From the IMG/VR virus record IMGVR_UViG_3300035523_000098, positions 1 to 24,688 of that record: a DNA stretch of 24,688 nucleotides. The stretch is one strand, 5' to 3'. Source of the stretch: a virus. The number at the start of each line of letters is the position of its first letter. The stretch's first letter is position 1. Positions 10,357 through 24,513 of this stretch are shown here, piece after piece. A program made the position numbers and the translations under genes. The notes under the pieces were generated by a model that was given only the letters and a program-made list of their open reading frames with translations, was not told the origin of the DNA and ran no database searches.

Positions 10357-10385
10357 TTGACTTCACAAAGCCGGCATGCTATCGT
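10357..10385 (+). promoter_or_regulatory. Sigma-70-type promoter of moron 1
   Basis: TTGACT (10357-10362) and TATCGT (10380-10385) are separated by 17 bases. The lipoprotein ATG is at 10421 with GAGGAGG at 10407-10413. Confidence 0.7.
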
Positions 10386-10420
10386 TCAGCAAATTCTGTT
10401 CGGTGCGAGGAGGTCACACG

Positions 10421-10867
10421 ATGAAGTGGTCGTTGTTCCTGGTGGCGATCGCATGCGTTGTCTGTTTGCCTGGCTGTTCTGGGCCCGCGGGCTCGACAGA
10501 GCCGAGGGGAGGGCTTACGATAGGACTCTCCCTCGTACCCGCCCTATCGGCCGATCCCGGCATCTGCGAATGCTGGGGCTTTTACGGCAACTTCGAAGGG
10601 TACTCCGTCCCAAACTTCTGGCAGACGCACGCCCGAACCTGGAGCGTGACCTTGGAAAACGGGGACCCCTCAGAAGCGGTATTCGTCGAAGAGCGGACCG
10701 AGCGGGTGGGAGGATACGAGAGAGTGGCCTACGCGTTCCGGCCCACGCGTCCCGCCTCGACCGTCTATCTCTGCACGCTGCAAGTGCACGAGACTGGCGA
10801 TCCGAAGAGCCTGGTGATCGCCACTAGGTCGACCACGATTGGCATTACGGCTTCTACCGCGCCGTAA
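10421..10867 (+). CDS. Moron 1: small secreted lipoprotein
   Basis: The protein has 148 residues from ATG 10421, chosen for its GAGGAGG site eight bases upstream rather than the earlier in-frame start. Residues 1-19 (MKWSLFLVAIACVVCLPGC) form a lipoprotein signal peptide: basic residue, hydrophobic core and a CLPGC lipobox with lipidated Cys19. The mature part has a CECWGFYGNF motif and beta-rich sequence (WSVTLENG, VYLCTLQVHE), possibly an Ig-like fold. It stands on the plus strand against the late operon with its own promoter and hairpin, the standard layout of a lysogenic-conversion cassette. Phage lipoproteins such as T5 Llp and Streptococcus phage Ltp block superinfection; a similar role here is inference, as no homologue is recognised. 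Confidence 0.8.
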   Translation: MKWSLFLVAIACVVCLPGCSGPAGSTEPRGGLTIGLSLVPALSADPGICECWGFYGNFEGYSVPNFWQTHARTWSVTLENGDPSEAVFVEERTERVGGYERVAYAFRPTRPASTVYLCTLQVHETGDPKSLVIATRSTTIGITASTAP

Positions 10868-11533: not shown

Positions 11534-12670
11534 ATGACTTTACCGCGCGTTTCCCTCTTGGCCCTCGTAGCCCTTTTGGGCTGCACTTCCGCCAAGGCCA
11601 GTTACCTGTTCGCGAATAAGGCCGTGGCCAAACCTTGGATAGCGGCCGACTACCAGACCGGGGCCAGCGACTATTGCACGAACACGGTTCGAGCCCTGCT
11701 CCTGCAGAGCATTCCACGTGGAATGTACGTCCCGGCGCCCAACACGGCGGTGCGGGCAATCAGCAGCGATGGGTCCATGTTCATCAAGCTGGACGATGGG
11801 AGCGTCACCCAGTGCGAGGACCTTTACACCGACTCGAACGGCTATATGACGGTGACAGTGACTGCGACGGCTCCCGGCACACGCACCCTGCGTCTGGTCG
11901 GTCCGGGCATGGAGGACACCATCTACTGCGGCTTCGCCAACGGGCATTTCACCACAGCGCAGCACATCAACAAGGTCCAGCTCTTTGAGCCTGCCGATCC
12001 CTGGTGGTACTCCTGGAATGAGATTTACAACTCCTCGATCCAGCCGACACCCGTCCCTGCTCCGCTCGCTGGGGACGCAACTCCGCTCATCGACTCCAAC
12101 AGGATCGCGCTGTCAGCGCACTCGTTGTGCCCCGTGGGCGGGATAGGGGGCTACTTCCAGAACTACTATGCCGACCTGACCATGGATTCGGTGATCACGT
12201 GGGTAGCCGATAGCCCAACTAACGCAACGATGACTCCGGGTTGGCAGTACAGAGTGGGGTTCTGGGGCCGCGCTGAGGCGTCTGAGGCAGCGCCGCGGCA
12301 CACGCATTCGTATTCCTTTGTTGGTGAACAGGCCAGCGTTAGCGGGATCATTAACTCCGGCACGCAGGGAACCGAGAGCATTGCCGTGGCGCTGCAAGAC
12401 ACCATGGATTACCAGTCGCTGGACACGGATTGGACTCCGCTTCACACCCTCTCATATACGCCGCAGCCGCTCACGCAACCGCTCACAAGCAGTCCCACCG
12501 ATGCCGACTACATAATCCGGCTCACCGCGTATGCCGATCCGCCAGCCGAGGAGGGTCACACATACGAAGGCTGGGCTCAGGCCTTGTGTGACATCAGGGC
12601 GACGATTCCAGAGAAGACCGAATCGTGCCCCTATATCATCGAGCACGTGCATACGCAGAGCGTGTTCTAG
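11534..12670 (+). CDS. Moron 2: secreted or lipidated surface protein of unknown function
   Basis: The protein has 378 residues from ATG 11534, with a weak GAGGA site upstream. Residues 1-22 (MTLPRVSLLALVALLGC, then TSAKA) form a signal peptide. LLGC fits a lipobox, while SAKA followed by S also fits signal peptidase I, so the anchor type is uncertain. The rest is beta-rich, with Trp/Tyr-rich segments (PADPWWYSWNEIYNSSI), a Pro-rich linker and several paired Cys (Cys47, Cys93, Cys128 region, then C-terminal Cys) consistent with extracytoplasmic disulfides. There are no catalytic motifs I recognise. It is on the plus strand with a strong hairpin behind it. Base composition is visibly less GC-rich than the tail genes. 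It is likely a lysogenic-conversion gene; the role is unknown. Confidence 0.75.
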   Translation: MTLPRVSLLALVALLGCTSAKASYLFANKAVAKPWIAADYQTGASDYCTNTVRALLLQSIPRGMYVPAPNTAVRAISSDGSMFIKLDDGSVTQCEDLYTDSNGYMTVTVTATAPGTRTLRLVGPGMEDTIYCGFANGHFTTAQHINKVQLFEPADPWWYSWNEIYNSSIQPTPVPAPLAGDATPLIDSNRIALSAHSLCPVGGIGGYFQNYYADLTMDSVITWVADSPTNATMTPGWQYRVGFWGRAEASEAAPRHTHSYSFVGEQASVSGIINSGTQGTESIAVALQDTMDYQSLDTDWTPLHTLSYTPQPLTQPLTSSPTDADYIIRLTAYADPPAEEGHTYEGWAQALCDIRATIPEKTESCPYIIEHVHTQSVF

Positions 12671-19876: not shown

Positions 19877-19922
19877 ATCCCTCAAGCCAATCACATAGGC
19901 GCCTTCTCGGACAGGAAAGGGA

Positions 19923-19951
19923 TTGACATCCTCCAAAGGGTGTGATACATG
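19923..19951 (+). promoter_or_regulatory. Extended -10 promoter of moron 3
   Basis: TTGACA (19923-19928), a 17-base spacer ending in TGA, then TACATG (19946-19951). The TG at 19943-19944 gives an extended -10 that may offset the weak hexamer. The leader to ATG 20073 is about 115 bases with no feature I recognise. Confidence 0.6.
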
Positions 19952-20072
19952 AGACTTCAGTTGGCCACGAGCTCATAGTGTCCAGCTCATCCCGAAGCTG
20001 CTGAACGGATTGCAGGCGACGCTGAGATCAATGCAGACCGTTCAGAGCATTCAATGCACGGAGGATTGTGCA

Positions 20073-20798
20073 ATGGCTGAGGTGATTTCTGTCAGGGCAG
20101 GGGCGGTCACCAGGGGTGATCAAGGGAGTCGTTTACAGGGCGCCAATGAGGCGAATGCCGGTACCGAGAACTATGAGATAATCGAGATCCTGAACTACTG
20201 GGTACAGAACGGTATCGCAACTAGGCCGCTGAATGGACCGGGGCATAGCGACGCCGCGACTGAGCGTTCGGGCGAACCGGCGGGGGCAGGAGTACTAGGC
20301 CGGTTCCCTTGCGTTAACGCCGTTGATGGGACGTACCCTGGTACGAAGATCCCTCTGTACAACGCCTGCGACACTTGGCGCGTCGCCGTGTTCTCCTGGG
20401 TTACTGGAGCGCTGTCCCGACACCCGGTACCGCCGAAGAGCCAGGTCTGGATTGAGGTTCAGGCCTACTCGGGTCGACAGGTCGACGATGTTCCGCTCAA
20501 GCAAATGCCCGAGGACCTATCTTCTGTTGAGGGCGTCGAGCCGCCAGAGGACATCCGCGAACTGGTTGCGATGCTTCTGGATCGGTCCGGATTGACCAGT
20601 GTGGTTGAGCGGAAACAGATTCCGAGAGCTGTGATTCGGTTACTCGATGAGTATGCTTCATCGGTCCACCAAACAGATTGCCAGATCAATGCCATATACG
20701 GTTGTGGCTCGTGCTGCAACAGCGGCAACAGAGCCAACCTTGTAGATAGTACATGCGGTTGGATGTGTTGGACGTGCGCGAACGAACCCTGTGGCTAG
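20073..20798 (+). CDS. Moron 3: hypothetical protein with a cysteine-rich C-terminus
   Basis: The 241-residue protein starts at ATG 20073, chosen for GGAGG at 20060-20064 (8-base spacing) over earlier in-frame starts. There is no signal peptide, so it is probably cytoplasmic. The middle contains a mixed alpha/beta region (YEIIEILNYWVQNGI; SQVWIEVQAYSG) and a helical stretch (DIRELVAMLLDRSGLTSVVE). The last 40 residues hold nine cysteines (CQINAIYGCGSCC, then TCGWMCWTCANEPCG), with several CxxC-type spacings, suggesting a zinc- or metal-binding knuckle. It is on the plus strand between minor head and protease-like genes, with its own promoter and hairpin, and is less GC-rich than its neighbours. 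No family recognised. Confidence 0.75.
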   Translation: MAEVISVRAGAVTRGDQGSRLQGANEANAGTENYEIIEILNYWVQNGIATRPLNGPGHSDAATERSGEPAGAGVLGRFPCVNAVDGTYPGTKIPLYNACDTWRVAVFSWVTGALSRHPVPPKSQVWIEVQAYSGRQVDDVPLKQMPEDLSSVEGVEPPEDIRELVAMLLDRSGLTSVVERKQIPRAVIRLLDEYASSVHQTDCQINAIYGCGSCCNSGNRANLVDSTCGWMCWTCANEPCG

Positions 20799-20812
20799 GC
20801 GGTAGGGCAACG

Positions 20813-20849
20813 AGAGCGAAGGGCATTCACCCGAAATGCCCTTCGCTCT
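20813..20849 (+). terminator. Terminator hairpin between moron 3 and the minor head gene
   Basis: A perfect 15-bp stem (20813-20827 with 20835-20849) has a 7-base loop. It sits between two convergent stops (20798 plus, 20857 minus), so it can serve both transcripts as a bidirectional terminator. Confidence 0.75.
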
Positions 20850-20856
20850 TCGGCGT

Positions 20857-21927
20857 TCATTGGGTGCGGTTTCGCCCCCGTTTCCCTGGAGACGTACCAT
20901 CGTTGGGGTTGGCTCCGCAGTTCTTCAGCGACCGTTCCACGCGGTACGGCCCCCAGCGTTCGTCCTCGCCTTCGTGAACCAGGTCGGAGAGCCGCATAGA
21001 GCCCTTCCGGTAGAGGTCGAACTTGCCGGGTCCGAGGATCTTCCTCTGCTCGCTCTCGTCAAGGTTGGCGAAGACCTCCTCACCTGTCTCCTTGGGCTTC
21101 CACGTCCGGTCCGGCATGTCGGGATAGCCGAGCTCCGCCCATGACTTTGCGGCCGGTATCGTGGTGCAGCGACAGCACACGTGGCTTGCGAACGGCTCAT
21201 CCAGGGGGTGAAAGGTCCCGTCCATCGCCCAGCATACCGGGCAGCACCGCAAGCCGCCAGACGCCTTCCACCACCAGCCGGCGACGTATTCGCTGTTCTC
21301 CTTCAGGTACTCCGCGGCGGACGTGCGGTAGGCGCGCAAGGTCTCAGTGCGGGCGATGCGCAGAGACCGGGAGAGAGGCACGCCGAGTTCGTCCCGCACT
21401 TCGGCCGCGATCCGCTCCGGGCCGAAGCCCAGCGCCAGGCCGGAAAGCAGCCGATCGCGAACGGCCTCTCCGGCGGCCGGCGCGATCTCGGCGAAGAGCG
21501 CGGCCAATGGCGAGCCGTCCGAGGCGAAGCCGGCCAGGCTCTCCGCGGCGCGGACAGGAAGTCGGGTGAACAGGCTCTCGATGCGGACGGTGGGCGGCGC
21601 CGGCGTCAGCGCCAGGGTTAGCTGCTCCGCCGTCGCTCCCACGGCCAGCTCCACCGCGGCGGCCTGGGCCTGGGCGATGGAGTCCGCGGCCGTCCCGCCG
21701 TAGCGGGCGATCCGCTCAACGACCTGGGCCTCCAGAGCCCGCAGCCGTGAGACGCGGTAGGCGACTGACTCGGGACTAGCCTTCACGTCGGCGAGCGCCG
21801 CGGCGAAGTCGCGCTTCAAGCGTTCGTAGACGGCGGTGTACGCCTTCACGAGATCGGCGGCCAACTCCCGATCGGCGGCAAGGAGGCGTTTCCGGTAGGC
21901 CTCGTGGACAGCCAGGATGCTCGCCAT
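20857..21927 (-). CDS. Minor head protein, SPP1 gp7 / Mu F-like
   Basis: The 356-residue protein starts at ATG 21927, one base after the sigma-fusion stop. The N-terminal half is helical. Residues about 160-260 carry the head-morphogenesis domain of the Mu F/SPP1 gp7 family: GFGPERIAAEVRDELGVPLS, then RIARTETLRAYRTSAAEYL and the Cys/His cluster CCPVCWAMDG (Cys228-232) with HVCCRCTTIPA (His249, Cys251-254). This matches the family pattern CxxC...HxxCRC. Members bind the portal region or DNA and affect genome delivery. It follows the portal in the classic order except for the fusion gene inserted between them. Confidence 0.9.
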   Translation of the reverse strand: MASILAVHEAYRKRLLAADRELAADLVKAYTAVYERLKRDFAAALADVKASPESVAYRVSRLRALEAQVVERIARYGGTAADSIAQAQAAAVELAVGATAEQLTLALTPAPPTVRIESLFTRLPVRAAESLAGFASDGSPLAALFAEIAPAAGEAVRDRLLSGLALGFGPERIAAEVRDELGVPLSRSLRIARTETLRAYRTSAAEYLKENSEYVAGWWWKASGGLRCCPVCWAMDGTFHPLDEPFASHVCCRCTTIPAAKSWAELGYPDMPDRTWKPKETGEEVFANLDESEQRKILGPGKFDLYRKGSMRLSDLVHEGEDERWGPYRVERSLKNCGANPNDGTSPGKRGRNRTQ

Positions 21928-21928
21928 C

Positions 21929-23011
21929 TCAGGCAGCCGCCGCTGGGAAGTTCAGGACGGCCCACTCCCCGAGCAGCTCCCTCGCCGCCTGGTCGTAGGC
22001 CATCGCCGCTGCCTTCGGGGAGCCAAACAGGCCCAGCTTGTGAGCGGTCCCATTCGCCATCAGTTCTGCTGTCCATTTTCCCGAAACAGCGTGCTGGCTG
22101 ACCCCCTTGAAGCCCGTCCGGTTCCTCGCCCGCTGCTGGTGGTAGGCCTGCCATGCCGGCACGATGACCAGGTTGGAGCGCCGGCAATCGAGAACGTTCC
22201 GGTTCACGGCAAGGACGCGATGGCCTTCGGGGACGGTCCCGACGACCACGTGGTGTAACCGTACCTGAAGGCGGCGCCCGCTTCTGCGGTCCTCGCTGTA
22301 GGCAAAGCCCTTGGCGTGCCGGTGCCAGCGGTAACTGCCGAGCCGGCCTGAGTCCAAGGCATCGACGATGGCGCTCCCGCCATTGGTGAGTGAGAGTTGG
22401 ACCGTCCCGCCCGCCACCATCTCGGCCACCCGCCGGGAGGCGCGCAGCCTGCCGGCGATCTCGACCTTGAACCGCCGCTGGAACCGCTCCGTCTCGGAAG
22501 GCTTCCAGCCGCGGCTGGCTCCGAACTCCTTCCACGGCAGCCCGCCCAGGATCACCTCGCGGACGGCAGCGGCGTCATCTCTTGGCAGCCCCGCCACGGC
22601 CGCGGCGATCTCCCCCGCATCAAGACCGGTCAAGGCCTCGGCCGCCACGTCCACCGAGGCGGGAAGCGTTTCCAGCATCGTGTCGCCGTCGCTGGTGAGG
22701 CCCATGGGCTTCAACTCGTTCAGGCTGTCCACCCGGATGGAGCCCGCTAGCGCCTTCGGGATGCCGTGCAGGTATCTGGCCCACGCGCGGATTTGGTGCT
22801 TGATCTCCCCTCGCACCCACGAGCCCGCCATCGTCTTGAAGGCGTAGCCGCGGCCCGGGTCGAACGTCTCGGCCGCCTTCATGAGGCCGAGGGCGCCGGC
22901 GCTGTAGTGGTCGTCATACGAGATGGCCGGGCACTTCCTCGTGAACTTTCCGGCCTCGGCCTCGACGATGTACAGATGGCTCGCTATAAGCGCTTCCCGT
23001 TCGGTCGTCAC
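21929..23011 (-). CDS. Sigma-70-like factor fused to a degenerate HNH-AP2 endonuclease-like domain
   Basis: The 360-residue protein starts at GTG 23011 (GTGA overlap with the portal stop); the longer frame back to 23827 lies inside the portal gene and is rejected. Residues about 5-88 match sigma-70 region 2 (SYDDHYSAGALGLMKAAETF, then DPGRGYAFKTMAGSWVRGEI). Residues 125-190 look like region 4 (GLPRDDAAAVREVILGGLPW before a helix-turn-helix). Residues 203-290 resemble phage HNH proteins (LHHVVVGTVPEGHRVLAVNR, LDCRRSNL), and 297-355 an AP2 DNA-binding domain (TGFKGVSQH, GKWTAELMANG, AAAMAYDQAARELLGEWAVLNF in pieces). The usual catalytic D-H of the HNH motif is Leu267-Ala268, and the usual N of LDN is Cys276, so nuclease activity is doubtful. 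It may be a transcription factor built from a homing endonuclease. Confidence 0.8.
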   Translation of the reverse strand: MTTEREALIASHLYIVEAEAGKFTRKCPAISYDDHYSAGALGLMKAAETFDPGRGYAFKTMAGSWVRGEIKHQIRAWARYLHGIPKALAGSIRVDSLNELKPMGLTSDGDTMLETLPASVDVAAEALTGLDAGEIAAAVAGLPRDDAAAVREVILGGLPWKEFGASRGWKPSETERFQRRFKVEIAGRLRASRRVAEMVAGGTVQLSLTNGGSAIVDALDSGRLGSYRWHRHAKGFAYSEDRRSGRRLQVRLHHVVVGTVPEGHRVLAVNRNVLDCRRSNLVIVPAWQAYHQQRARNRTGFKGVSQHAVSGKWTAELMANGTAHKLGLFGSPKAAAMAYDQAARELLGEWAVLNFPAAAA

Positions 23012-24513
23012 GCCTGCCCCCTGTCGAACGCGGCGAGGAGCTTGGAGCCCATCGCCTCCTGGGCCTCCCGCTTCTCGGCAATCATCGCCTGAACCTGCTC
23101 GTCGGAGTAGCCAAGCTCGGTGAGGATCTGCTTCTCGGAGACGCCGAGCTGCTGCTTCAAGAGCAGCGTCTGGGCCGACTCCTGGCCCGTCTCCCGGATC
23201 AGGGGCCTTGGCGCGATTGCCATGTCGATATCCCCTCGCTCGTAGCTGTCGAGGCTGAACGGCGCGAACTTGGCGCGCTGGGCGCCGAGTTCTCCCTTGC
23301 TCCCCCACGCTCCGGACTGGGCCCGCCACCCCGCGATGGCCACCGCCATCTGGAAGAGCTTCACGCTCTGCTGATCGTAGCCGGCAGCCGCGTCGCTGAG
23401 CCGGTTCACGGCGTCGCCCATGATCCTGGCGGCCGCCGGGCCGGTGACCTGGCTCATCTCCCGCAGTTGGGCGTGGACGGTCAACTCCGGCAGGTCCTTC
23501 TCGATCTCCGCGATCTGCTTGTCCAGAGCCGGGTAGGCGTCGGCGATCTGAAGCTCCAGCATGTGGATCCCGGAGCCCTGCGGCACCCGCCACAGGCCGA
23601 GGCTGTCCTTGTCCCGCTCCGGGGACGCCTGGTCCGCGGTTGGCGGCCGCTTCCCCCGCTCGTTGGGCAGCTTTCCCTCGGCATCCACGATGAGCGGGCT
23701 GTTCACGATCTTCATCACCCGGTCGTTGAGAGCGCTGGCCAGCTGGTTCAGCTCGTCCACCTTCTGGTAGCACGCCGCGATGGCCGGCTCGCCGTGGTCG
23801 CTCCCCACGTTCCGGTGCCTCGCCCACGCTGCCGGCACGAAGCCGTAGGGGTTGGGGACGGTCGCCTCCTGTCCGGGCTGGTAGCTGAACGGCTTGTCAT
23901 CTCGGAACGTGGTGATCGCCTCGGGCGTGACCTCCTTCCCGTACTTGTACTCGCGGCCGTTCTCATCGGCGGCGTACTCCTGCAGGTAGCGCTTCACGTT
24001 CCCCTGGCTGTCGAGGTCGAGCGCCGCGATCTGACCGGGCCACACGATGTCCAGGTAGACCTTCCTGCGCTCCATGTCGTCCACCACGGCCACGAGCACG
24101 TCGCCGAGGCTGGCCCCGTAGCGCACGAAGACGGACTTCCCGTCCAGCCAGTTCGACCACTGCCAAACCTGCTGGATGGCGGGCAGAAGCGCCTCGTTGT
24201 CGCTCTCGATGGGGATGGCGTCATCCAGCGGCCCCGGGTAGACGAACCCGGCATAGAAGTCTGCGAGCCGTCTTGCCGGGTTGTAGAGGCCGCGGATGTT
24301 GCGGTAGAGGTTGTAGTTCACCCGGTAGGCGACCGCGCTCCGGAAGCCGTCGTAGACGGAGTTCTCGTGCAGGCTCCAGAGGTAGCCGTACCACTCCTGC
24401 ATGCGCTGGTAGGCCTGCCCTTTACCCGACGGGTCCTGGAACACGCGCTTCCACGTCCCCACCGCCGCCCGCGTCGCCATGATCGCCCTCCTCGGTATGC
24501 TCTGTGCGCTCAT
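23008..24513 (-). CDS. Portal protein (SPP1 gp6-like)
   Basis: The 501-residue protein starts at ATG 24513, overlapping the upstream terminase-like stop. The N-terminal part (YRVNYNLYRNIRGLYNPARR, then LADFYAGFVYPG), the acidic-hydrophobic region VAVVDDMERRKVYLDIVWPG, NPYGFVPAAWARHRNVGSDH with a following KVDELNQLASALNDRVMKIV helix, and the C-terminal ILTELGYSDEQVQAMIAEK helix fit the SPP1 gp6 portal family. It forms the twelve-subunit channel through which DNA is packaged. Its stop overlaps the GTG of the sigma fusion, so that gene is probably translationally coupled to the portal. Confidence 0.88.
   Translation of the reverse strand: MSAQSIPRRAIMATRAAVGTWKRVFQDPSGKGQAYQRMQEWYGYLWSLHENSVYDGFRSAVAYRVNYNLYRNIRGLYNPARRLADFYAGFVYPGPLDDAIPIESDNEALLPAIQQVWQWSNWLDGKSVFVRYGASLGDVLVAVVDDMERRKVYLDIVWPGQIAALDLDSQGNVKRYLQEYAADENGREYKYGKEVTPEAITTFRDDKPFSYQPGQEATVPNPYGFVPAAWARHRNVGSDHGEPAIAACYQKVDELNQLASALNDRVMKIVNSPLIVDAEGKLPNERGKRPPTADQASPERDKDSLGLWRVPQGSGIHMLELQIADAYPALDKQIAEIEKDLPELTVHAQLREMSQVTGPAAARIMGDAVNRLSDAAAGYDQQSVKLFQMAVAIAGWRAQSGAWGSKGELGAQRAKFAPFSLDSYERGDIDMAIAPRPLIRETGQESAQTLLLKQQLGVSEKQILTELGYSDEQVQAMIAEKREAQEAMGSKLLAAFDRGQA

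Follow-up and report, generated by a model that had tools for sequence, protein, structure and literature searches.

The window, by which is meant the whole stretch of 24,688 nucleotides analyzed here (IMG/VR record IMGVR_UViG_3300035523_000098), carries on its minus strand a fused gene at 21929..23011, an ORF that runs from a GTG start at 23011 to a TGA at 21929 and comprises 360 codons with no internal stops; the same ORF is present in a second phage, described below. The gene is located between a portal protein gene (23008..24513, minus strand), assigned from a PHROG portal match (4e-4), portal relatives by sequence and the gene context, and a Mu F-like head morphogenesis (MuF) gene (20857..21927, minus strand), assigned from a Pfam Phage_Mu_F match (2.1e-13) and context; a portal search of the phage collection gave no match. 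In both phages, the portal stop and the GTG of the fusion gene overlap as GTGA, with the TGA common to both genes, which agrees with the coupling described in the first-pass annotation, and the MuF start is positioned one base past the fusion-gene stop. A purine-rich stretch, CAGGGGGCAGGC (23012..23023, minus strand), which resembles a ribosome-binding site by sequence only, sits just 5′ of the GTG, and an alternative ATG start is found nine bases downstream of the GTG in the second phage. The gene order by itself suggests that the fusion gene is expressed late.

Elsewhere in the window, a stretch just after the MuF gene (19888-20922) has no match between the two phages; it includes a plus-strand ORF (20010-20798) without a PHROG match, and the second phage carries different ORFs there. 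Two further plus-strand ORFs, at 11534-12670 (no Pfam or PHROG match) and 10376-10867 (no PHROG match), lie among minus-strand structural genes and have signal-like N-termini.

The N-terminal half of the predicted protein resembles a sigma factor. Region 2 of the sigma-70 family occupies residues 4-76 (22784..23002, minus strand) and is recognized by Pfam Sigma70_r2 (residues 11-76, E 9.7e-9, 35.3 bits against a cut-off of 24), by PHROG 351, annotated as sigma factor (residues 4-83, 1.7e-16), and by PDB sigma chains. An alignment to TIGR02937 covers both sigma regions (residues 4-173) at 38.5 bits, under the cut-off of 42.9 for that model, and the top NCBIfam sigma matches of the protein are the SigF and FliA/WhiG models. 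Region 2 is followed by a linker (residues 77-124; 22640..22783, minus strand), delimited by sequence, alignment and low model confidence, in which a stretch SLNEL..SDGDTMLETLP is similar to the region 3.2 linker of sigma factors; neither sequence nor alignment revealed a region 3 domain in the sigma half. Region 4, a helix-turn-helix, occupies residues 125-198 (22418..22639, minus strand) and is delimited by TIGR02937, the structure model and fold matches to sigma region 4 (Z 7-7.8).

The structure model used was the second one built, from 48 sequences, an earlier one from only two having reached a pLDDT of just 37. In the model used, pLDDT exceeds 90 over most of the HNH-AP2 half and is mostly 66-89 in region 4 and about 43-60 in region 2, and the assignment of region 2 therefore rests on sequence profiles; the trimmed structure comparison returned no separate rows for region 2, which belongs to the low-confidence part, and this does not count as evidence against it. 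The predicted region 4 (approximately residues 128-195) resembles sigma region 4 of WhiG, SigW and SigR (Z 7.6-7.8 over 61-65 residues), and this portion of the model also has a fold match to 9n9q, titled “RNA-guided transcription complex”. Thus, the protein has two elements of a sigma-70 family member, region 2 by profile and the region 4 helix-turn-helix by fold, and the sigma-likeness of the N-terminal part that had been proposed from the letters is borne out by sequence profiles and, for region 4, by structure prediction.

Without a stop codon, the sigma regions continue into an HNH domain (residues 203-291; 22139..22405, minus strand) and an AP2 DNA-binding domain (residues 299-348; 21968..22117, minus strand). 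The former was assigned from Pfam HNH_3 (residues 257-286, E 4.5e-5, marginally under the cut-off), PHROG 99, annotated as HNH endonuclease (residues 257-354, 3.9e-18), and a fold match of model residues 218-289 to I-HmuI (Z 6.9); the latter was assigned from Pfam AP2 (residues 299-348, E 7.9e-9, above the cut-off) and matches of model residues 294-360 to WRI1 (Z 10.9), TEM1 and AtERF1 (Z 9.4). The architecture and the domain boundaries given in the first-pass annotation are therefore upheld by Pfam, PHROGs and fold matches; the loss of the HNH catalytic residues had been missed. The catalytic residues of I-HmuI have been named as D74, H75 and N96 (PMC12724721). A profile alignment to 1u3e places the family Asp-His on I-HmuI D74-H75, where the window protein has Leu-Ala (residues 267-268; 22208..22213, minus strand), and the structural alignment with I-HmuI ends at model residue 289, corresponding to chain residue 96, where the window protein has Ala (22145..22147, minus strand) in place of the Asn of its relatives. 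At these three positions, the second phage has L, V and A. The best 80 HNH-AP2 relatives retrieved from viral contigs all carry the catalytic Asp and His (80/80 each), and 79/80 carry the Asn. In one of two scan patterns, the Asp-His columns were restricted to D/L and H/A/V; this pattern, which permitted the window's own residues, cannot by itself produce the contrast with the relatives. Residue 282, Arg in all 80 of these relatives, is V in the window protein and S in that of the second phage; N280 (I-HmuI N87) is retained. The fold of an HNH-AP2 homing endonuclease is thus present in the usual order and the catalytic Asp-His and Asn are absent, and the HNH of the fusion protein is almost certainly inactive as a nuclease.

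Other unusual HNH genes were encountered in the viral contigs. A single ORF in L035 (853-1665; IMG/VR 3300044816_000066) contains two HNH units, the first without Asp-His (VVSMKNRDGLDCRAANLK) and the second intact and followed by AP2. In L026 (1875-1955; IMG/VR 3300035525_000072), a phage with a sample number close to that of the second fusion phage, a 27-codon HNH motif remnant located between stops looks like a decayed HNH gene. In L075 (415-2073; IMG/VR 3300032893_000001), HNH-AP2 appears to be inserted in frame in a nucleotide-kinase-like protein, with GLCGQAGSGKDTVADFL preceding the HNH-AP2 and an apparent continuation afterwards.

The first-pass annotation had recommended a search for homologues with the same fusion and had named a sequencing error as a possible origin. 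One homologue was found, in a second, independently assembled contig (L001; IMG/VR 3300035523_000050), in which the ORF at 1687-2769 encodes a 360-residue fusion protein with 86% identity to that of the window over 356 amino acids and is likewise located between the portal and MuF genes; a sequencing or assembly artefact is thereby ruled out. In the collections searched, these two sequences alone carry the fusion, and this is the main weakness of the case. A tblastn search of 50,697 phage and 72,556 plasmid records returned none that covers 80% of the fusion protein; viral contigs, scanned with the complete protein, with its sigma and HNH halves separately, and with two DNA patterns as well as two alignments, yielded only L001, and two scans of genome contigs retrieved no fusion, although these contig scans depend on short conserved stretches that distant fusions could escape. 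Some of the best 80 HNH-AP2 relatives are N-terminally extended; by eye, the ten longest all lack a sigma-like appearance. In two relatives with distant portal proteins (L009 and L010; approximately 28-29% identity), the MuF gene directly follows the portal gene and no sigma-like ORF is found there; in the distant portal relatives as a whole, no sigma factor was detected by profile, several of those loci being short. Accordingly, the lineage of the window phage seems to have gained the fusion gene, at the type of site where homing genes sit, with L009 and L010 too distant for the addition event to be reconstructed.

The two copies of the fusion gene differ in a sharply bounded manner. Their DNA is 94% identical across codons 10-203, 64% across codons 204-326 and 95% across codons 327-360, with corresponding dS values of 0.21, 1.58 and 0.22; identity in the adjoining portal and MuF genes mostly exceeds 90%. 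A two-breakpoint fit placed the edges of the divergent tract (22034..22402, minus strand; HNH and AP2 sheet) at codons 204 and 326 and improved the log-likelihood by 71, as compared with at most 9.9 in 20 shuffles. The left edge coincides with the sigma/HNH junction and the right edge, according to the model, with the final strand of the AP2 sheet; the AP2 helix, which follows immediately, lies outside the tract, where DNA identity has returned to 95%. Because dS in the tract is high, selection on amino acids alone is excluded as the cause of the divergence; the simplest explanation would be recombination with a third, unseen allele. The computation shows that a DNA-reading tract has been exchanged in frame, with the sigma part constant. 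In the AP2 domain, the two phages carry different residues at the positions that correspond to AtERF1 R150, R162 and W172 (S/R, M/T and K/Y, respectively), and R162 is presumably a DNA-binding residue. R150 and W172 are cited as such (PMC3602543).

Despite its divergence, the module is constrained. Over codons 204-326, 132 of 369 bases differ, 72 of the 132 at third codon positions, with no indels, and the 44 resulting amino-acid changes compare with a neutral mean of 77 and a minimum of 65 in 5000 simulations. The dN/dS is approximately 0.2 (0.315/1.58), a ratio to be read with the tract dS near saturation and with part of the divergence possibly older than the loss of catalysis; in the sigma half, dN/dS is approximately 0.07, indicating strong purifying selection. 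The HNH-AP2 module is thus shown by computation to be under purifying selection; the absence of stop codons, which has a probability of 0.11 under neutral drift, was not by itself used as evidence. Changes shared by both modules, namely D-to-L, N-to-A, N276C and T285P, nevertheless speak for a common ancestor that was already dead. Because both copies have the same catalytic losses, their common ancestor was most likely already nuclease-dead, and given that the module is nevertheless conserved, selection would have acted on something other than cutting, for which AP2 DNA binding is the obvious candidate.

These observations suggest, with moderate confidence, that the gene encodes a phage FliA/SigF-like sigma factor with regions 2 and 4, the C-terminus of which is an exapted, nuclease-dead HNH-AP2 module that helps to choose the promoter. 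The sigma half would bind the host core RNA polymerase and read the -10/-35 elements of phage promoters, and the AP2/HNH module, positioned just after region 4, would contact DNA upstream of or around the -35 element, thereby adding or altering promoter specificity. Since the gene is coupled to the portal gene, the protein would be active while the structural genes are expressed, serving as a late or middle switch that reinforces itself. Exchange of the module would re-aim one and the same sigma factor at different sites. The first-pass annotation had offered two readings, that the DNA-binding half was recruited to target polymerase or that a homing gene had captured a late regulator; with the catalytic residues gone from both copies and the module under purifying selection, the former is favored and the latter, in the sense of a protein that is still homing, is disfavored. 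More tentatively, the tail may be a modular promoter-recognition cassette that is swapped in frame between phages while the sigma core stays constant.

The loss of catalysis would also be expected if a homing endonuclease had landed at the end of a sigma gene and become fused to it by read-through, leaving a useless nuclease half behind a sigma factor that works alone. HNH-AP2 genes are frequent and mobile, and their degeneration in phages is documented (PMC2248197); moreover, no sigma gene lies at the portal-MuF junction of the two distant relatives in which this junction can be read. However, the module has remained open and free of indels, its AP2 domain passes the Pfam threshold, and its amino acids are strongly conserved although the DNA has diverged by 36%; such features are unlike useless sequence and make this origin unlikely. 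Homing by an endonuclease with an altered active site, targeted by its sigma half, is highly improbable: the tract exchange is somewhat like homing-caused gene conversion and N280 is retained, but the three I-HmuI catalytic residues are lost in both copies, and the tract ends inside AP2 with both gene ends alike, whereas homing normally carries the whole gene.

The same anatomy would serve a protein in which the sigma half binds the host core enzyme, which is held on DNA by the AP2/HNH half, with the purpose of shutting off host transcription or holding polymerase on phage DNA and not of initiating at new promoters. Phages often encode polymerase-binding proteins; retention of region 4 and of the SLNEL..GDTMLETLP linker, together with a dN/dS in the sigma half as low as expected of full initiation function, nevertheless makes such a role decidedly unlikely. 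The coupled gene order between portal and MuF would also fit a DNA-binding protein made together with these head proteins and acting on genome ends, its sigma-like half reused for binding DNA or protein, and some phage HNH proteins do serve packaging (PMC12724721). Packaging HNH proteins are, however, expected to need their catalytic residues, and the two distant relatives with adjacent portal and MuF genes do without the fusion gene; we regard this as very unlikely.

If the promoter-choosing role of the exapted tail is correct, the two phages constitute a natural chimaera experiment in which the swap of the tract can be set against a shift in regulon. The routes from nuclease to transcription factor are known mainly from finished products, namely plant AP2/ERF factors, WhiA and CapR; here, a nuclease remnant is joined directly to a phage sigma factor, and the two variants differ almost only in the DNA-reading tract. 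The fusion may thus show a parasite gene in the course of turning into a transcription factor.

In the open papers searched, no report was found of a sigma-HNH or sigma-AP2 fusion, nor of any sigma factor that carries a large DNA-binding domain in addition to regions 2-4; for this sigma factor fused to a homing-nuclease remnant, without precedent in those papers, the most likely mechanism is a sigma factor with an exapted tail. The free-standing phage HNH-AP2 homing endonucleases (I-HmuI-type, PHROG 99) share the HNH-AP2 order, approximately 31-40% identity and a similar fold, whereas the window protein is fused behind a sigma factor and has lost the catalytic D, H and N. With phage and FliA/SigF-type sigma-70 factors it shares region 2, the region 3.2-like linker and region 4, but it is without a recognizable region 3 and has a 160-residue DNA-binding tail derived from a homing endonuclease. 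An extra C-terminal domain is also found in ECF sigma factors such as ECF41, which carry fused regulatory tails (PMC3426412); those of the ECF41 type are SnoaL-like regulatory domains, whereas the tail described here is a nuclease-derived DNA-binding module in which HNH-AP2 and no other Pfam family, SnoaL-like or otherwise regulatory, was found. WhiA, a transcription regulator made up of a degenerate LAGLIDADG endonuclease and a helix-turn-helix (PMC3781837), likewise puts a dead homing endonuclease to use in transcription control, but it is a chromosomal regulator with the opposite domain order and no sigma region 2, and the nuclease half of the window protein is HNH-AP2 and contains no LAGLIDADG domain. 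CapR and plant AP2 factors derive from the DNA-binding parts of homing endonucleases (PMC10448857) and are thus similarly turned into transcription regulators. Both CapR and the plant AP2/ERF proteins stand alone, in contrast to the window protein, and none is joined to a sigma factor. A functional parallel to the sigma-HNH-AP2 fusion is provided by nuclease-dead Cas12f, which acts with a partner sigma factor in RNA-guided transcription.
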